DNA from: Avibacterium endocarditidis
GTDB taxonomy: Bacteria; Pseudomonadota; Gammaproteobacteria; Enterobacterales; Pasteurellaceae
Length of the DNA: 47,611 nt
Direction of reading: 5' to 3'
Assembly (NCBI RefSeq): GCF_002921145.1
Contig: NZ_PQVI01000016.1
Location: 1 to 47,611, forward strand
The position numbers and the translations under genes were made by a program. Below, piece by piece: positions 25,592 to 43,083 of the stretch (positions are counted from its first letter, which is position 1; every line of letters starts with the position of its first letter). The notes below the pieces were generated by a model, which did not search any database, was not told the DNA's origin, and worked only from the letters and a program-made list of their open reading frames with translations.

Positions 25592-27232
25592 TTAATGTTT
25601 AATGATATAAACGTCTTTTAAATAATAGTTTTGTGCTGGGTGCGCATAAGCAAAGCCTTTCACCCAAGGTTTAATTAAACGCGGTTGAACATAGTGATAA
25701 ACTGGCACCATTGCGGTATCCGCATCTAACAATCCTTCTGCTTTGGCATACACTTCTGCACGCTCATCATCGCTTTGCGCTTTGAATGAAGAATCAATCA
25801 AGGCATCATAAGCTGGATTTTTATAGAATGCAGTGTTGTTCGCACTATTGGATAAATAATAGTTCAAGAATGTGCTGGCTTCATTATAATCCGCACACCA
25901 ACCTGCACGCGCCACATCAAAGTTGCCTTGATGACGCGTATCTAAGTAGGTTTTCCACTCTTGATTCTCCAAGGTGATATTCACCACGCCTTGTAAATTT
26001 TTCTTCCAAATGGACTGCGCGGCACTCGCCAATTTTTTGTGGTTATCAGAGGTGTTATATAACAATTTGAAATTTAACGGGTGAGATTTATCAAAGCCCG
26101 CTTCTTTCAACAATTTAAGCGCTTCTTGATTACGCTGATCTTGCGTCCAATTTGCCCACTCAGGGTTAGTCATTTTCTCAGCCCCATTGATAAATGGCGG
26201 GGTGAAAATATAAGCGGGTTTTTGCCCTTGTTGTAACACTTTATTTGTTAAAATTTCACGTTCTAAGGCCAAAGATAAGGCTCTACGCACTTTTGGATTA
26301 TCAAACGGTGCTTTTGCCGTATTGATTTCGTAAAGATAAGTACAAAGTTGCGGCGCGTGATAAAGCTCATCGCCTAATTCTTTTTTCACTTTGCCATATA
26401 ATTCAATTGGAATTTCTTTCCCTGTAATATCTTCATCGCCTGCACGATAACGCGCCACATCTGTTGATGAAGATTCGATAGGCAATAACACTACTTTATC
26501 CAACACGGTGCGCGCGTTGTCCCAATAATTCGGATTGCGCTCTAACACGGCTTTTTCGTTTACAACTGCAGATTTCAGCACAAATGCCCCGTTACCTACG
26601 AGATTACCTGGTTTCGTCCAGTTATCACCAAATTGCTCTACCACTTTTTTATTTACTGGCGCTAACACATAATGCTCAACCAATTTATCAACATAAGGCA
26701 CAGATTCGGTTAAATGTAACACTAACGTATGATCGTCTTTGGCTTCAACACCGAGATCAGTAACAGGAAGTTTGCCTGCGGTAACTTGATCCGCATTTTT
26801 CAATTTCACAAATTCTAAGAAGCTTGCATAAGGTGCTGCCGTTTTCGGATCGGCTAAACGCTGCCACGCATAAACGAAATCACCTGCCACAACAGGATCA
26901 CCATTTGACCATTTAGCATCAGGGCGAAGGTGGAATGTCCAGGTTTTGGAATCTGGGCTATGTTCCCAAGAGGTCGCCGCCCCGGGAATAATATGCCCTT
27001 TCGGATCAGAAGTCACTAAGGTTTCAAACAACTGACGCGCATAATAACTTTCTACATCGCCTTCCATTTTTTGTGGATCAAGGGTGGCAGGGTTAGAACT
27101 AATATTCCAAGTTAATTCTTGCTTGTCAGCCAACTGTGTCCCAGCGGGTACCTCAGCCGCCATTGCCGACCCCACAGAAAGGGATAACCCTAAAACGGCA
27201 GATAAAAGTGTTTTTTTGAATGACGTGTGCAT
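25592..27232 (-). CDS. oppA: Periplasmic oligopeptide-binding protein OppA
   Basis: 546-residue SBP family 5 protein with a signal peptide (about residues 1–25, KKTLLSAVLGLSLSVGSAMA, cut before AEVPAG). SNPATLDPQKMEGDVESYYA, WSNGDPVVAGDFVYAWQRLA and NPNYWDNART are hallmarks of OppA/MppA. It captures peptides for OppBCDF; in H. influenzae OppA homologues can also bind haem, which is not decided here. The ribosome site AGGAGG is strong, 5 nt before ATG 27232. It is the first gene of the operon. Confidence 0.96.
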   Translation of the reverse strand: MHTSFKKTLLSAVLGLSLSVGSAMAAEVPAGTQLADKQELTWNISSNPATLDPQKMEGDVESYYARQLFETLVTSDPKGHIIPGAATSWEHSPDSKTWTFHLRPDAKWSNGDPVVAGDFVYAWQRLADPKTAAPYASFLEFVKLKNADQVTAGKLPVTDLGVEAKDDHTLVLHLTESVPYVDKLVEHYVLAPVNKKVVEQFGDNWTKPGNLVGNGAFVLKSAVVNEKAVLERNPNYWDNARTVLDKVVLLPIESSSTDVARYRAGDEDITGKEIPIELYGKVKKELGDELYHAPQLCTYLYEINTAKAPFDNPKVRRALSLALEREILTNKVLQQGQKPAYIFTPPFINGAEKMTNPEWANWTQDQRNQEALKLLKEAGFDKSHPLNFKLLYNTSDNHKKLASAAQSIWKKNLQGVVNITLENQEWKTYLDTRHQGNFDVARAGWCADYNEASTFLNYYLSNSANNTAFYKNPAYDALIDSSFKAQSDDERAEVYAKAEGLLDADTAMVPVYHYVQPRLIKPWVKGFAYAHPAQNYYLKDVYIIKH

Positions 27233-31826: not shown

Positions 31827-32915
31827 TTAAGGCAATAAATAGAGATAAACGGTGATCTCTTCCCTATCGTGATACAAATGTTTTGCTTTGAGCTTGAATT
31901 TAAGTCCTTGTTTATCCAAGGCTTGTTCGATCATTGCTAAACATTCTTTGACTTCCGCATAACGCTTTTTCATCGGCAATTTTAAGTTGAAAATACTGGC
32001 GTGACACCAGCCATTGATCAACCATTTTGTGATGAGTTGTGCGATGCGACTAGGCTGTTCCACCATATCACACACTAGCCAATCAATGCGGCGGCGTTTC
32101 GGGGGCTGAAATTTAAAACCGTCTTCCGCGCAATGTTCGATCCGCCCTGTTTCGTGCAGACTGGCAGCCATTTTTCCGGATCCACGGCATAAACAATAAA
32201 CCACGTTTTACCAGTTGATATGTCCAGCCCCCCAGGGCAAGCACCAAGATCGACCGCATATTGGTTTTCGTTCAGATATTGGCTTTCTTTTGTTTCGGAA
32301 TAAAGGTTAAGATGGCTTCTTCTAATTTCAGGGTTGAACGGCTTGGCGCGTCTGCGGGGAATTTAAGCCGTTGAATGCCCATAAAATAAGGGGAATGGTT
32401 GTGGTTGTAGGAATATCCAACATAGCACGCGGTGGATTGCAGAAAAAAACGTGTAACGTTACCGCACTTTTGTGGCTATCTTTACCCTGTAGAAAACCTT
32501 CTTTTTTCAATGCGTTACGCAGTGGCACAGTAAATTTACGGCAAAATCCCGAAAGCTCTTTGGCTTCGTTGGTATCGGCGGTTTCCACAAATAATTCAGT
32601 GCTATTTTTGAGCTTTTTCGCCAATTCACTTTGACGATATTGCGATAAAATGGGGCTAATACGATCTTCAGGGGAAAGATCTTGCAATAAATCAGACACC
32701 ACGATCATTTGGCGAGCAAAAATCAGTTGATCAAAAGGCAATTCTTGTGCAAGACGATCCGCTTCGCCTGCTTGATAACATTCAAAAATCACATAGCCTG
32801 AATTCGGCTCAACACGGGCAAAACCAAACACGCCGCGCTCACTGGCTTTATCGGTGATTTCCGCGGCTAACTCTTTTTCAAAACCAATACGGCAATATAA
32901 GGCAAGTTTATTCAT
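31827..32915 (-). CDS. rlmM: 23S rRNA 2'-O-methyltransferase RlmM, several frameshifts
   Basis: Methylates C2498 of 23S rRNA. The N-terminal THUMP-like part is continuous from [20 protein letters not shown] to about 32385. Then small indels alternate: one T short near 32383, one change near 32290, one extra G in the run at about 32227–32232, one T short near 32196 and one A short near 32172. Reading through them gives [20 protein letters not shown], then [20 protein letters not shown] (SAM site) and [20 protein letters not shown]; the C-terminal part has [16 protein letters not shown] and [13 protein letters not shown]. Reconstructed length is about 362 residues, close to E. coli RlmM (366). 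Five homopolymer changes in 1.1 kb point to local poor sequence quality. It overlaps gcvA by 8 bp. Confidence 0.9.
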
Positions 32916-33798
32916 TATTATTTCTTATTTCTTTAATTATCCATTGGCGGAATGCCAAAATTTGTTCATCATTGGCTTTATCTAATTGATTTACCACATA
33001 AAAAGATTTTGGATCTTTTAGCTGGGTTGGGAGCACCACTTGTAAATTCCCTTTATCAATTTCCTGTTGAGCCAGCAATCGATTAGCAAGCACAATACCT
33101 TGTCCGTGTACAGCCGCTTGTAATGCCATAAAAGTATGGCTAAAAATTGGCCCGTGCTGAATCTCTAGCCCTTTGAGGTGCAAATAATTCGCCATATTCT
33201 GCCAGTTATCACGGGTATGAATATGAATCAGCGTATGTTTTTTAAGATCTTCTGCAGAATGTACAGGTTGTTTAGCCAAAAGTTTTGGTGAAGCCAGTAA
33301 AAGCAAATTCTCTTCGGCTAACTTTTCTACTTGCAGATTTTCCCACGCACCACGTCCATAGTAAATAGCAATATCAATTTCGCGATTTAATAAGCCTTCA
33401 TCTTGATCTACACCCGTTAAACGCACTTCAATATCAGGGTGAAGATCATTAAATCCGCTTAAACGTGGCACAAGCCATTGAATACCAAAGGTTTGTGGTA
33501 CGCTGATGGCAATATGTTTTTCATTTTTCTGCAGCATTAATTTTTGCGTAACTTCGGACAAACGGCGCAAAATCTCGGTAACTTCTTTAAAATAAATCTG
33601 CCCTAACTCAGTTAACACTAACGCACGGTGCTGACGCTTAAATAATTCAATGCCTAAAAAATCTTCTAATAATTTAATTTGATGACTCACTGCGGCTTGG
33701 GTAACAAAGAGTTCATCAGCAGCTTTTGTGAAACTTAAATGACGTGCCGCACATTCAAAAGCTTTCAGTGAATTCAAGGGAGGCAAACGTTTATACAT
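32908..33798 (-). CDS. gcvA: LysR-type regulator GcvA of glycine cleavage
   Basis: 296-residue LysR regulator very close to Gcv[41 protein letters not shown] (HTH), [58 protein letters not shown]. GcvA activates gcvTHP and the divergent small RNA gcvB when glycine is abundant. Here a GcvB-like RNA lies directly divergent at 33923, strongly supporting the call. The stop overlaps the rlmM start; the E. coli gene ygdD that separates them there is absent. Confidence 0.95.
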
Positions 33799-33885
33799 AA
33801 AATCTTCTCAAATGAAAAATTATCAGTTATACTAACTCACTGATTTATCTATTAGTTTTTTTATGCAAGGGATAAAAAATATCCT

Positions 33886-33914
33886 TTGTTCTCGCCCACG
33901 CATCTCACTACAAT
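33886..33914 (+). promoter_or_regulatory. gcvB promoter
   Basis: TTGTTC (33886–33891) and TACAAT (33909–33914) with exactly 17 bp between them, ending about 8 bp before the predicted GcvB 5' end. Upstream (33838–33860) are ATTAG/CTAAC elements resembling the GcvA CTAAT recognition core, in the region shared with the divergent gcvA. Confidence 0.65.
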
Positions 33915-33922
33915 ACATACAT

Positions 33923-34091
33923 ACTTAATGATTGGTAATTCCTTATTGGTTAAGAGTTTCGACTTAAGTATGATGTTGTGTTTGCATAGTTCGGGCAACC
34001 GAACGGAGTAACTGGTTAGTTACTCATTTCACTTCCTGTATATTTTTTAACCCATTTAGGTTAGACACCGCTCATTTGAGCGGTGTTTTTT
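33923..34091 (+). ncRNA. gcvB: GcvB small regulatory RNA
   Basis: About 169 nt, divergent from gcvA as in E. coli. Conserved elements seen: a 5' stem (CTTAATGATTGG with pairing partner ATTGGTTAAG), the G/U-rich R1 seed GATGTTGTGTTTGC (33972–33985) that pairs with many amino acid transport mRNAs, the hairpin TTCGGGCAACCGAA, the hairpin GAGTAACTGGTTAGTTACTC, the highly conserved TTTCACTTCCTGTA (34027–34040), and a final terminator stem with U run. In E. coli GcvB represses oppA and dppA among others; oppA lies in this window. The exact 5' end is inferred from the promoter. Confidence 0.9.
34065..34091 (+). terminator. GcvB terminator
   Basis: ACACCGCTCA / TGAGCGGTGT (34065–34074 and 34077–34086) followed by a T run to 34091. 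The loop is short (best read as CTC/GAG closing ATTT). Confidence 0.92.
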
Positions 34092-34281
34092 ATGTGCCAG
34101 ATCCTACCACAATTTCACTTTGCACCGAAATAGATTTCCTTGTAGCTAGCAAAGAATAAATCACATTTTTTCCTAATAAAAATAAATTCAAAAATAACCG
34201 CACTTTTATTGTTGCAAGTTTTTGATAATGGTGTAGATTAAAACCATTCTGTTGTAACAACATCATTATTAAGGAAATAAA

Positions 34282-35304
34282 ATGACAATCAAAAATCTCG
34301 ACTGGCAAAATCTTGGTTTTGGTTATATCAAAACTGATTATCGCTACATTGCATATTGGAAAGATGGCAAATGGTCTAAAGGTGAGCTCACCCAAGATAA
34401 TGTTTTACACATTAGCGAGGCTTCTAGCTCATTACATTATGGGCAACAATGTTTTGAAGGCTTAAAAGCCTACCGTTGTAAAGATGGCTCAATCAACTTA
34501 TTCCGTCCTGAGCAAAATGCTGAGCGCTTGCAAAAAAGCTGCCAACGTTTGTTAATGCCTGAAGTCCCGACAGAAATGTTCATTGATGCTTGTAAACAAT
34601 TAGTTAAAGCAAATCAAGATTGGCTTGCGCCTTATGGCACTGGCGCAACGCTTTATTTACGCCCGTTTGTGATTGGCGTGGGAGATAACTTAGGCTTAAG
34701 CCCTGCTACAGAATATATTTTCTCTATTTTCTGTAGCCCAGTAGGTGCCTACTTCAAAGGTGGAATGAAACCAACTAACTTTATCGTATCCGAATACGAT
34801 CGTGCCGCACCGCACGGCACAGGAGCGGCTAAAGTGGGTGGAAACTATGCGGCTAGCCTTTATCCAGGAAAGCTCGCCAAACAACGTAACTTTAGCGATT
34901 GTATTTATCTTGATCCAACCACACACACAAAAATTGAAGAAGTGGGTGCGGCAAACTTCTTTGGTATCACGAAAGACAACAAATTTGTTACGCCACTTTC
35001 TCCGTCAATTCTGCCAAGTATTACAAAATATTCTTTGCTCTATTTAGCTAAAGAACGCCTTGGTTTAGAAGCCATTGAGGGCGATATTTATATTAATGAG
35101 CTGGATCAATTCAAAGAAGCGGGCGCGTGCGGAACAGCTGCCGTAATTACCCCAATCGGTGGTATTCAGTATGGCGATAATTTCCACGTTTTCTATTCTG
35201 AAACGGAAGTAGGCGAAATAACCCAAAAACTTTATAACGAGCTTACAGGCATTCAATTCGGTGATATTGAAGCACCTGAAGGTTGGATTGTAAAAGTGGA
35301 ATAA
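34282..35304 (+). CDS. ilvE: Branched-chain amino acid aminotransferase
   Basis: 340-residue fold-type IV PLP enzyme of the longer BCAT II type (about 340–360 residues, unlike the 309-residue E. coli IlvE). [37 protein letters not shown] and [10 protein letters not shown] are typical. The PLP Lys is expected in [14 protein letters not shown] (Lys184). It catalyses the last step of Leu, Ile and Val synthesis. Ribosome site AAGGAA lies 7 nt before ATG 34282. The gap from gcvB holds an uptake signal (34197–34205) and probably the promoter; no leader peptide with a branched-chain codon run was seen. Confidence 0.94.
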
Positions 35305-35333
35305 TTTCCCAAATTCAATCAAGACATAATAAA

Positions 35334-35353
35334 AAAGGGGCGTTTGCCCCTTT
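35334..35353. terminator. Bidirectional terminator between ilvE and truB
   Basis: AAAGGGGC / GCCCCTTT (35334–35341 and 35346–35353) with a GTTT loop, A run on the left and T-rich on the right, between convergent genes. Confidence 0.85.
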
Positions 35354-35357
35354 CGTT

Positions 35358-36283
35358 TTATACCAAATCCAACGCCACCATTCGACTTGGTCGGATAACG
35401 TTGTTTTTATCCACTTCTGCCACACCAAGAAATTGATTTTCGGCAGAAAATAACCGCACTTGTCCATAAATGCCTTGTGGATTATCAAACTTCACACGTT
35501 GTCCAAACCCAACAGCTCGGCTTTGTTCGGCACTTAAAGCCAACGCAGGCAAGGATTTCACGGCACTGTCCGCTGGCAATAAATGCTGATCGAGCAAGGT
35601 TAAATCTTGCTGTTCGCTCAAGGCTTGTAGTGTCTCAATGGTCATCATTGCGTCTTTTGGATAATCCGCCACAGCAAGGCGGCGGAGCATTGTAACGTGT
35701 GCACCACAGCCTAGCGCTTCGCCTAGATCGTCCACTAAGGTGCGGATATAAGTGCCTTTCGAACAATGCACTTCCAAGGTTAAATAAGGCGCTTGGTAAT
35801 CAATAAATTTCAGCTCAAAAATGGTAATTGGACGGGCTTCGCGCTCCACAGTGATCCCTGCGCGGGCATATTCATAAAGCGGTTTTCCCTGATGTTTTAA
35901 GGCTGAAAACATTGTCGGCACTTGCATTATGTCGCCACGGAATTGTTCAAGTGCGGTCAAAATCTCTTCTATTTTTGACCGCACTTCTCGCGTTTCCACC
36001 ACTTGCCCGTCTGCGTCAGAGGTGTCCGTGCGTTCACCGAGTTTTGCGGTAACCAAGTAACGCTTATCAGAATCGAGCAAATATTGCGAAAACTTGGTGG
36101 CCTCACCTAAACAAATGGGCAACATTCCTGTGGCAAGGGGATCTAGCGCACCAGTATGCCCTGCTTTATTTGCCTGAAAAAGCCGTTTTACTTGTTGCAT
36201 AATTTGGTTAGAACTCGCCCCTTGCGGTTTGTCTAACAAAAAAATGCCGTGAATATGACGGCCTTTATTTTTGCCTTACTCAT
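35358..36283 (-). CDS. truB: tRNA pseudouridine-55 synthase TruB, frameshifted at N-terminus
   Basis: Forms pseudouridine 55 in the T loop of tRNAs. Motif [21 protein letters not shown], catalytic Asp in [19 protein letters not shown]-type strand [20 protein letters not shown], and [20 protein letters not shown] are present. The true start ATG 36283 overlaps the rbfA stop (ATGAGTAA); one A is missing from an A run near 36264, so MSKAKIK must be joined to [15 protein letters not shown] in the next frame. Corrected length is about 308 residues. An inverted uptake-signal pair is inside the gene (35949–35986). No rpsO follows; ilvE converges instead. Confidence 0.94.
35949..35986. repeat. Inverted uptake-signal pair inside truB
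   Basis: AAGTGCGGTCAAAA (35949–35962) and TTTTGACCGCACTT (35973–35986) form a perfect 14-bp stem with a 10-nt loop in the coding sequence. It encodes a poorly conserved stretch ([15 protein letters not shown]), just before [16 protein letters not shown]. Confidence 0.9.
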
Positions 36284-38361: not shown

Positions 38362-40908
38362 CTAAATTGAGCGTTTAATTTCAACCACTTCAAAGACTTC
38401 GATTTGGTCGCCGACTTTGACATCGTTGTAGTTTTTCACGCCAATACCACATTCCATACCACTACGCACTTCTGCAACGTCATCTTTGAAGCGGCGGAGA
38501 GATTCCAATTCGCCTTCAAAGATTACCACGTTGTCGCGTAATACACGGATTGGGTTGTTACGTTTCACGACCCCTTCGGTTACCATACAACCTGCGATTG
38601 CACCGAATTTAGGGTGGCGGAAGACATCACGCACTTCAGCAAGCCCGATAATTTCTTGTTTAAATTCAGGTTGTAACATTCCGCTCATTGCCGCTTTGAT
38701 TTCGTTAAGTAGTTCATAAATAATTGAATAATAACGTAAATCAATACTTTCATTTTCAATGATACGGCGTGCTGACGCATCGGCACGAACGTTAAAGCCG
38801 ACAATAATCGCGTTTGAAGCCGCCGCAAGGGTGGCATCAGTTTCGGTAATTCCGCCCACACCTGAGCCAACCACATTCACTTTCACTTCTGGGGTTGAAA
38901 GCTCTTGGAGGGCTTGAACGATCGCTTCAACCGAGCCTTGAACATCGGCTTTTACAATCACGTTCAATTCTGCCACATCGCCCTCAGCCATATTGCTAAA
39001 CATATTTTCAAGTTTCGCTTTTTGCTGACGAGCGAGTTTCACTTCGCGGAATTTACCTTGACGATACAATGCCACTTCGCGCGCTTTTTTCTCATCACGC
39101 ACCACCGTGGCTTCATCACCCGCTGACGGCACGCCTGATAAGCCTAGCACTTCCACAGGAATTGAGGGGCCTGCTTCTGAAATTTCTTTACCGTTTTCAT
39201 CACGCATTGCACGCACACGACCATATTCAAAGCCACAAAGTACAATGTCACCACGGCGTAATGTGCCTGATTGAACGAGGATTGTTGCCACTGGACCGCG
39301 ACCTTTATCAAGGTAAGATTCAATCACCACACCCGTTGCCATTCCATCTTTCACTGCACTGAGTTCTAATACTTCAGATTGCAATAAAATCGCATCAAGC
39401 AATTCATCAACGCCCGTTCCTTTTTTCGCTGAAACATAAACGAATTGCGTATCCCCACCGAATTTTTCGGCGATTACTTCGTGTTGTAGTAATTCTTGCT
39501 CTACGCGATCTGGGTTGGCTTCAGGTTTATCAATTTTGTTCACCGCCACCACAATTGGCACGCCTGCTGCTTTCGCGTGTTGGATCGCTTCGATGGTTTG
39601 TGGCATCACGCCATCATCAGCCGCCACCACTAGCACTACGATATCTGTCGCTTTTGCACCACGCGCACGCATTGAGGTAAAGGCCGCGTGTCCTGGGGTA
39701 TCCAAGAAAGTGATCATTTTGCCGTCATCGGTTTCAACGTGATATGCACCAATGTGCTGGGTAATCCCACCCGCTTCGCCTGCAGCTACTTTCGCTTTAC
39801 GAATGTAGTCAAGTAAAGAGGTTTTACCGTGGTCAACGTGTCCCATAATGGTAACCACTGGTGCACGATTTACTTTTTCCGCATTCACATCACGATCGCC
39901 TAATACAGATTCTTCTAGCTCATTTTCTTTACGCAGGATCACTTTGTGTCCCATTTCTTCAGCAACAAGCTGTGCGGTTTCTTGGTCGATCACTTGGTTG
40001 ATGGTGACCATTTCGCCCATTTTCATCATTGTTTTGATGATTTCGGTGGCTTTCACTGCCATTTTGTTGGCTAATTCCGCTACGGTAATGGTTTCACCAA
40101 TTACCACATCACGGTTTACCGGTGCGGCTGGTTTAGTAAAGCCCTGTTGTAAGCTGCTGCCTTTTTTGCCTTGTTTACCTTTAAAGCCTTTTCCGCCTTT
40201 AGCATCTTTTTGGTTACGGCGATTGGATTCACGCTCGTTTTTGTTGCTATCGTCCTTCGCGTCCGCCTTTTTTCGCTTTGGCTACTTTATTTTTGCCACG
40301 ACCACGATTTTCATTACGGCGTTCTTCTTCATCTTCCGCTTCACGCGCATAGCTTGAAGTGAGATGATAATCTGAATAATCTTCAGAATTTTCATTTTTT
40401 TCATCCGCACTTGCAAGATCTGCATAACGTTTTGCTTCTTCTGCGGCTTTGCGTGCTTGCTCTTCCGCTTTTTGACGAGCTAATTCATCAGCTTTACGGC
40501 GTAACTCGGCTTCTTCCGCTTTCAAGCGCTCTTTTTCTTCATCAACCGCTTTGTTGGCCGTTTCTTTTGCTGATTTTTCTGCTTTTTCTTTCGCTTTTTG
40601 TTCAGCTTGACGTTTTGCCTGTTCAGCTTTTTTTCCGCGTCTTTTTTCGCTTTTTCAGCTTCTTTCTGCGCTTTTTCTGCGGCTGCTTTCTCTTCCGCCG
40701 CTTTCTTTTCCGCTTCTTGTTTTGCTTTTAAGCGTGCTTCTTCTTCAGCACGGATAGCGGCTTCCGTTGGCACAGTACGTTTTTTACGCACTTCCACTTG
40801 TACAGTTTTGTTTTTACCTGTACTGGTTGTGGTGCTTGCCGTGGTTTTCGTACGGCGCTGTATGCTTAATTTTTTCGGTGCATCCGATTTTTTTACTTCA
40901 TCTACCAT
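38362..40908 (-). CDS. infB: Translation initiation factor IF-2, frameshifted in N-terminal region
   Basis: GTPase that brings initiator tRNA to the 30S subunit. The G domain is intact: G1 [10 protein letters not shown]3 [17 protein letters not shown]4 NKIDKPEA, G5 SAKKGTG; domains II to IV continue to the normal C-terminus [20 protein letters not shown]. The Lys/Glu/Ala-rich N-terminal region is split twice: one A missing from an A run at about 40628–40634, and one extra G at about 40251 (GGREDDSNKNE expected). Start at 40908 ([20 protein letters not shown]) resembles the short IF-2 of H. influenzae, with AAGGGG upstream. Reconstructed length is about 848 residues. infB is essential, so the breaks must be errors. 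Confidence 0.96.
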
Positions 40909-40924
40909 AATTTTACACCCCTTT

Positions 40925-42408
40925 TTATTCTTCGCTGAACCAACAAATGTTGCGTGCTGCCATAATTAAATCCGCTGCTTGCTCAGTGCTTAATTCTTCA
41001 ATATCGGCTAAATCATCAACACCTTGCTCCGCTAATTCTTCTAAGGTGGTGATTTGTTTTCTGCAAGTTTGAACGCAAGATGACGGTTCATTCCTTCAAG
41101 ATTGAGTAGCTTGTCTTCAATATGCGCTTGTTTTAACGCTTCTTCTTCCGCTAATGCAGCGGCTGTTAGTGCATCTTTCGCGCGGGTTTGCAACTCTTCC
41201 ACTAAATCTTCATCTTCTAAACCATCAATCGCAGTAAGTTCGCTCACTGGCACATAGGCTAACTCTTCTAAATTAGTGAAGCCCTCTTCAACCAGAATTT
41301 GCGCGAATTCTTCGTCAATTTCTAAGGCGTTCATAAAGAGTTTCAACACTTTGTTATCTTCAGCTTGATGTTTTTCATTTAGCTCTTCTGTGGTCATTAC
41401 ATTTAACGCCCAACCTGTAAGCTGTTTGGCTAAACGCACGTTTTGACCATTGCGTCCGATGGCTTGTGGTAAGTTTTCCGCTTCAACAGCAATGTCCATA
41501 GAATGGTTATCTTCATCAACCACGATAGACGTTACATCGGCTGGCGCCATTGCGTTAATCACAAATTGTGCAGGATTGTCGTCCCACAATACGATGTCCA
41601 CACGCTCACCACCTAATTCATTGGTGATAGCTTGCACACGCGCGCCACGCATACCCACACAAGCACCCACTGGATCAATACGTTTATCATTGCTTTTCAC
41701 AGCAATTTTGGCACGCGAACCTGGGTCACGGCTGCACCTTTAATTTCAATTAGCTCTTCACCAATTTCTGGCACTTCAATCGGAAAAGCTCAATGATCAT
41801 TTCAGGTTTTGCACGGGTACAAAAAGCTGTGCGCCTTTGCTTTCTGGGCTAACGCGATATAACACGCCACGCACACGATCACCTGGGCGGAAATTCTCGC
41901 GCGGTAACATATCTTCACGCAAAATCACCGCTTCTGCTTGCTGACCTAAATCTAAAATAATATTTTCACGGTTTACTTTTTTCACCGTTCCCGTAACAAT
42001 TTCGCCTTCATTAGAGCGGAATTGCTCAACGATTTTATTACGCTCCGCTTCACGGATTTTGCTGCTGATCACTTGGCGTGCGGTTTGCATTGTAATGCGA
42101 TCAAAGGCAACGGATTCAATTTGATCCTCAATGTAATCACCTAATTGCACACTTGGATCATCAAACTGTGCTGCTTCAAGTGTGATTTCTTTGGTTGGAT
42201 TTGTTACCTCTTCCACCACTAACCAACGGCGGAAGGTATCAAATTCACCTGTTTTTGGATCAATCACCACACGGACATCAATTTCTTGATCGTATTTTTT
42301 CTTAGTAGAAAGTGCGATTGCGCTTTCTAATGCTTCAAAAATCTTTTCGCGTGGTAACAATTTTTCATTTGAGACCGCTTCTGCCGCCAATAAAATTTCT
42401 TTACTCAT
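40925..42408 (-). CDS. nusA: Transcription termination/antitermination protein NusA, several frameshifts
   Basis: RNA-polymerase-binding factor. From ATG 42408: N-terminal domain ([20 protein letters not shown]), S1 domain ([20 protein letters not shown]), KH1/KH2 ([27 protein letters not shown]), then two acidic repeats. Breaks: one base missing near 41812 ([11 protein letters not shown] expected), one near 41785 ([15 protein letters not shown]), one C near 41733 ([13 protein letters not shown]) and one A near 41057 ([14 protein letters not shown]). After the last one the frame runs through the second acidic repeat to the TAA at 40925. Reconstructed length is about 495 residues, equal to E. 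coli NusA. An essential gene, so these are sequence errors. Confidence 0.95.
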
Positions 42409-42883: not shown

Positions 42884-42963
42884 AACAACCTCCTTAATCA
42901 AACTTAGGACGTAAAAAAAGGGCTAATCAGCCCAGTTCTACATCTAAATTGCTCGTACAAAAA

Positions 42964-42981
42964 AACCCCAAAATTGGGGTT
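42964..42981 (-). terminator. Hairpin after tRNA-fMet
   Basis: AACCCCAA / TTGGGGTT (42964–42971 and 42974–42981) with a short loop; on the - strand it is followed by a T run. It lies between the tRNA and rimP, and read-through would be needed for rimP–nusA–infB expression from the tRNA promoter. Confidence 0.8.
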
Positions 42982-43005
42982 CTTTCTACTGAACTTGTTA
43001 TGAAT

Positions 43006-43083
<78 letters not shown>

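Follow-up and report, generated by a model that had tools for sequence, protein, structure and literature searches.

GcvA-dependent activation is established for gcvB of Escherichia coli and for a Yersinia pestis gcvB fusion assayed in E. coli (PMC1557403). Within the Pasteurellaceae, GcvB of Actinobacillus pleuropneumoniae has been detected as an RNA by Northern blot and RNA-seq, and gcvB adjoins gcvA in most of the Pasteurellaceae genomes analysed in that study (PMC4986893). GcvB was also recovered in Hfq-enriched samples of A. pleuropneumoniae (PMC9577009) and Histophilus somni (PMC10204968), and papers citing it refer to a published GcvB regulon for Pasteurella multocida. With GcvB in the Pasteurellaceae already published, the Avibacterium copy described here is a routine, expected member. 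A literature search on Avibacterium and small RNA returned no title or abstract opening on GcvB in this genus.

The window that we analysed is the whole stretch of 47,611 nucleotides of Avibacterium endocarditidis DNA. The first-pass annotation had placed a GcvB small RNA between gcvA and ilvE, and the search with the Rfam GcvB model (RF00022) bears this out. The model, for which a score above the gathering score of 42 bits defines membership, matches positions 33905-34093 of the plus strand with 103.5 bits (model positions 1-204; E-value of 5.6e-22 over the window), and this is the sole match above the cut-off in the whole genome. Also present are the G/U-rich R1 seed and the conserved block now assigned to R2, as well as an intrinsic terminator (34063-34088, plus the T-run), all of which had been described. 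The same holds for the gene order, in which gcvA is divergent on the minus strand and ilvE lies 188 nt downstream (Table 1). The proposed bounds of 33886-34091 stand at the 3' side; position 33886 belongs to the promoter and is not the start of the RNA. The start of the Rfam match overlaps the -10 box, and the RNA therefore more likely begins near 33921, where the spacing from the -10 box and the beginning of the 5' stem place it, for a length of about 171 nt. Elsewhere in the genome, a weak second match to the GcvB model lies at G000:C26:12494-12646 (26.2 bits, below the cut-off).

Table 1. Features of the gcvB locus and of related genes in the window.
Feature	Coordinates	Strand	Basis
oppA-like substrate-binding protein gene	25592..27232	-	best model PRK15104 (OppA), 769.6 bits, below cut-off of 947
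gcvA, LysR-type regulator, 296 aa	32908..33798	-	NF008352 (transcriptional regulator GcvA), 408.1 bits, cut-off 288
candidate GcvA operator, ATTA-N-T-run element, about -70 to -57	33851..33864	+	12 of 14 columns invariant in 10/10 aligned sequences
candidate gcvB -35 box TTGTTC	33886..33891	+	sequence; TTGT invariant in 10/10 aligned sequences; 3/6 consensus bases
candidate gcvB -10 box TACAAT	33909..33914	+	17 nt after -35; TA-AAT invariant in 10/10 aligned sequences
GcvB RNA, likely extent, about 171 nt	33921..34091	+	RF00022 match; 5' end from -10 spacing and 5' stem
stem-loop 1 (predicted)	33921..33971	+	MFE and centroid; outer pairs kept in 14-16 of 16 sequences, no two-sided changes
R1 G/U-rich seed GTATGATGTTGTGTTTGCATA	33968..33988	+	core invariant in 10/10 aligned sequences
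stem-loop 2 (predicted)	33989..34004	+	compensatory changes at 3/6 pairs, in 6, 6 and 3 of 16 sequences
stem-loop 3 (predicted)	34006..34025	+	2/7 consensus pairs with compensatory change, each in 1/16 sequences
R2 block TTTCACTTCCTGTA	34027..34040	+	conserved; predicted single-stranded, mean unpaired probability 0.84
intrinsic terminator	34063..34091	+	terminator scan; 5/9 consensus stem pairs with compensatory change
possible ilvE promoter TTGCAA-16 nt-TAGATT	34212..34239	+	read by eye; absent from consensus scan list
predicted GcvB site ACAACATCAT in ilvE leader	34257..34266	+	exact 10-nt R1 complement; same site in A. gallinarum (L005)
ilvE, branched-chain amino-acid transaminase, 340 aa	34282..35304	+	NF009897, 513.9 bits, cut-off 307; TIGR01123 (ilvE_II), 476.4 bits, cut-off 250.05

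Since the IlvE sequences of the window and of Avibacterium gallinarum NCTC 11188 do not differ (100% identity) and the surrounding 3.8 kb aligns at 95.7%, the window derives from an Avibacterium close to this species. Over positions 31901-35700, with the messy end of the alignment excluded, there are 10 single-base gaps in the window versus 1 in A. gallinarum. Nine of the ten fall in one-base runs, and the affected positions include the terminator T-run and bases beside the candidate operator. Other genes of the assembly are interrupted as well: hfq is frameshifted (G000:C77:8024-8202), probably by a sequencing error, and gives a one-piece match in all six other Avibacterium genomes; the frame of icd (isocitrate dehydrogenase) ends early; and at 38362-42408 of the window nusA falls into two separate frames, and the long infB frame comes without its N-terminal part. 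The assembly looks like an indel-rich draft in which gaps and frameshifts resemble sequencing errors, and single-base details of the window gcvB are therefore not to be over-read. This matters for a reading of the locus as a degenerate, non-expressed gcvB remnant. Such a reading could draw on a model score slightly under that of A. gallinarum (109.9 bits) and on single bases missing from the T-run and from the sequence ahead of the promoter. Given that R1, R2, the stems, the -10 box, and the spacing are all intact, and that the single-base differences have the appearance of assembly errors, we consider a remnant very improbable. As a separate observation, at 42913-43082 of the minus strand a rimP leader (RF01770, 48.6 bits, cut-off 47) comes straight after a tRNA gene; nusA and infB follow downstream in the same orientation.

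The promoter with a 17-bp spacer that had been proposed for gcvB was recovered in part: the spacer and both boxes are present, but the -35 box is poor. With its three of six consensus bases, it was missed by a consensus promoter scan of the region, which listed four other promoter-like sites versus 2.8 expected by chance. Support for the candidate promoter comes from conservation of both boxes in an alignment of 10 sequences (the window and nine relatives), and a poor -35 box is as one would expect for an activator-dependent promoter. The ATTA-N-T-run element further upstream resembles LysR-type activator sites in shape and place, and we take it as the candidate GcvA operator, to which GcvA would bind. 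In some relatives a full inverted repeat ATTAGTTTTTCTAAT is found at this place, of which one half is altered in the window. A pattern scan for the operator matched the window and 1 of 15 other loci, where the matched sequence was unrelated. The pattern being overly strict, the case for this element is made by the alignment.

The GcvB RNA folds with a z-score of -4.5 relative to dinucleotide shuffles, none of which (0/200) folded equally well. Compensatory changes in at least one of 16 sequences were found at 12 of the 37 consensus pairs, and 8 of these 12 belong to stem-loop 2 and the terminator (one sequence, L017, entered this covariation alignment a few bases short at the 5' end). The outer pairs of the predicted stem-loop 1 are conserved, not covarying. 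A terminator scan of the region yielded two terminator-like sites where 0.1 were expected, the second being stem-loop 3. In the predicted ensemble R1 is about half unpaired (mean 0.48).

GcvB was found in all 140 Pasteurellaceae genomes searched, in 139 of them above the RF00022 cut-off, and E. coli alone matched among 14 control genomes. A GcvA relative is divergent from gcvB in 140/140 genomes at a gap of 51-174 nt (compared by coordinates and strands, with contig numbers left out), gaps that make a chance pairing implausible. The GcvB at the present locus is real and ordinary for the Pasteurellaceae. On the other side of gcvB, ilvE, which was located in 138 genomes, follows within 1 kb on the same strand in 114 of them. 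One of these genomes (G012) carries ilvE in two pieces (G012:C16:35275-36251), of which the first was used, and another ilvE has one in-frame stop (G061:C1:1390954-1391982).

The glycine cleavage system shows a different picture. None of the same 140 genomes yielded GcvP (PF02347), and none a GcvH match above the cut-off (115.85); the GcvH search returned three weak matches (20-22 bits), located in open frames 546-645 aa long. Among the control genomes, 10/14 matched for GcvP, E. coli included, and 10/14 for GcvH. A survey of the order covered 119 genomes, 26 of them with GcvB above the cut-off; as counted by eye, none of the 7 Pasteurellaceae among these 26 had GcvP, and of the 19 others 16 had GcvP and 3 did not. 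In view of these matches in controls and in non-Pasteurellaceae GcvB genomes, we judged it unlikely that the absence of GcvP is a detection failure. Because GcvA and GcvB occur together throughout the 140 genomes in which neither GcvP nor an above-cut-off GcvH was detected, the pair seems to have outlived, in the Pasteurellaceae, the glycine cleavage system that named it. More tentatively, and at somewhat less than even odds in our estimation, gcvB would be the main or only target that GcvA has kept, so that the pair would act as a stand-alone glycine or amino-acid sensor with a post-transcriptional output, for which ilvE, mostly a neighbour, would be a recurrent target. Persistence of GcvA-GcvB without the glycine cleavage system in Pasteurellaceae was not stated in the titles and abstract openings that our literature search covered; it is quite likely, though, that pathway loss as such has already been described. 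That all 140 genomes carry the pair, and none a detected GcvP or an above-cut-off GcvH, opens to experiment the questions of which signal GcvA still senses and which genes besides gcvB it still controls.

As to targets, the first-pass annotation had pointed to oppA, a GcvB target in enterobacteria, in the same window. An oppA-like gene is indeed there, but R1 pairing with its leader is weak: it ranks 13th of 45 window leaders (-12.3 kcal/mol, shuffle p of 0.115). Across six Avibacterium genomes, that of the window among them, seven oppA-like genes gave p values from 0.07 to 0.60, and a seventh genome gave no match. On the basis of this weak pairing we set oppA aside as the main target. Genome-wide, complements of the 10-nt seed with at most one mismatch number 145 versus 101 for the reversed pattern. 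Six exact complements lie outside gcvB, four of them 21-77 nt before an open-frame start (raw count) and two not. The four frames, candidate further targets (L143, L147, L148, and L149), encode a GlpR-like regulator, a TAXI transporter binding protein, isocitrate dehydrogenase, and PurK.

The predicted site in the ilvE leader sits just 5' of AAGGA at 34271-34275, the ribosome-binding site; folding of the assumed leader places it in a local hairpin that is weak (-3.0 kcal/mol). By R1 duplex energy this leader ranks second of the 45 (-16.5 kcal/mol, shuffle p of 0.03), behind an open frame of doubtful start between nusA and infB (40522-40908). The 45 leaders were derived from mechanical ATG open frames, some with wrong starts, and p was at most 0.05 for three of them, where about two are expected by chance. 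The window alone therefore does not set ilvE apart, and the case for this target rests on its position and on relatives. A chance-level outcome of this kind would also fit an alternative in which GcvB is real but does not regulate ilvE, the match there being a by-product of leaders rich in A and C.

The relatives speak to both readings, with the reservation that the genomes are related, so that counts across them are not independent. Among 37 named Pasteurellaceae loci, the R1 duplex energy reached p≤0.05 for ilvE in 8, versus 2 of 35 for the gcvA leader used as a control. These 37 comprise 35 with a GcvB match above the cut-off at the locus and two without (L020 and L021), which were counted as misses and which, scored with the window's R1, also miss (p of 0.083 and 0.140). 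Exact R1 complements between -50 and +6 of ilvE were more frequent than expected from shuffles, at 11/37 loci for 8 nt (1.5 expected) and 15/37 for 7 nt (4.4 expected). The remaining 22 loci, A. paragallinarum among them, have no 7-nt match in the ilvE leader, and the predicted seed site is thus patchy across the named loci, as the by-product alternative would have it. The 8-nt matches lie near the start codon or ribosome-binding site, at varying places. As to the possible ilvE promoter, a GGTGTAGATTAA-like block recurs in the ilvE leaders of many relatives.

In 24 genomes ilvE is not adjacent to gcvB, and there an 8-nt R1 match near the start codon was found in 24/24 (3.2 expected) and a 7-nt match likewise in 24/24 (9.3 expected), although these genomes come from five genera and are therefore not independent. 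They were scored with the window's R1; in 10 of them the genome's own R1 (21 bases) was compared, and it was identical in nine and differed by two bases at the 5' edge in the tenth. The duplex energy reached p≤0.05 in just 2 of the 24 leaders, which again fits a by-product of leader composition. In A. pleuropneumoniae, ilvE is a predicted GcvB target, counted there among targets described for other bacteria (PMC4986893), and in a gcvB mutant of Vibrio alginolyticus ilvE was slightly but significantly up by qRT-PCR, with a transcriptome change that was not significant (PMC9409037). Weighing the excess of seed matches, the gcvA-leader control, and the A. pleuropneumoniae prediction against the patchiness and the energies, we regard the by-product alternative as unlikely, though it deserves to be taken seriously.

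The seed match in all 24 non-adjacent leaders makes ilvE a candidate for regulation in trans regardless of adjacency. It also bears on a third possibility, namely that the link operates in cis, with incomplete termination letting the gcvB promoter feed ilvE, so that GcvA would activate ilvE. The frequent position of ilvE close downstream of gcvB on the same strand would suit such an arrangement, but a conserved terminator stands between the two genes and the seed match persists where ilvE lies elsewhere, and we give read-through little credence. In Rodentibacter caecimuris, a PreQ1 riboswitch lies downstream of ilvE (L033 3807-3851). As judged from sequence, ilvE is a better candidate for GcvB regulation than oppA, and the site in its leader offers a concrete and cheap test of GcvB targeting.

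Altogether, we hold it as highly probable that the interval is gcvB and encodes a GcvA-activated, trans-acting RNA working through R1, with ilvE as one likely target. Identity, anatomy, synteny, and seed complementarity come from the locus itself, whereas for transcription, GcvA control, Hfq dependence, and repression we draw on established GcvB biology. Along these lines, the oppositely transcribed GcvA probably binds the -70/-57 element and turns on the gcvB promoter with its weak -35 box, from which a trans-acting RNA of about 171 nt would run to the intrinsic terminator. With Hfq, the R1 seed would pair to C/A-rich sites by the ribosome-binding sites of amino-acid genes and block their translation, and the neighbouring ilvE message is probably one such target, to which the RNA would bind in trans through ordinary seed pairing.

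Compared with the known systems, the window GcvB shares with that of E. coli and Salmonella the R1 and R2 seeds, the divergent gcvA, and the terminator, as seen through the Rfam consensus alignment. The E. coli RNA is longer, at about 205 nt. Relative to the Rfam model, the window copy lacks nine consecutive positions in the segment from R2 to the terminator, and it is presumably here that the enterobacterial R3 would lie. GcvB of the Vibrionaceae is also without R3 (PMC9409037), and R3 is therefore not a defining part of GcvB. A further difference concerns the regulator: E. coli GcvA also controls gcvTHP (PMC1557403); here GcvP was not found, nor GcvH above the cut-off. The likeness is closest within the Pasteurellaceae. 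The window gcvB can be aligned from end to end with those of H. somni and Pasteurella oralis. Like the other Avibacterium sequences in the alignment, it has 2-3 bases fewer in the stretch from R1 to stem-loop 2 than other Pasteurellaceae GcvB, with which it has R1, R2, the terminator, and the divergent gcvA in common.
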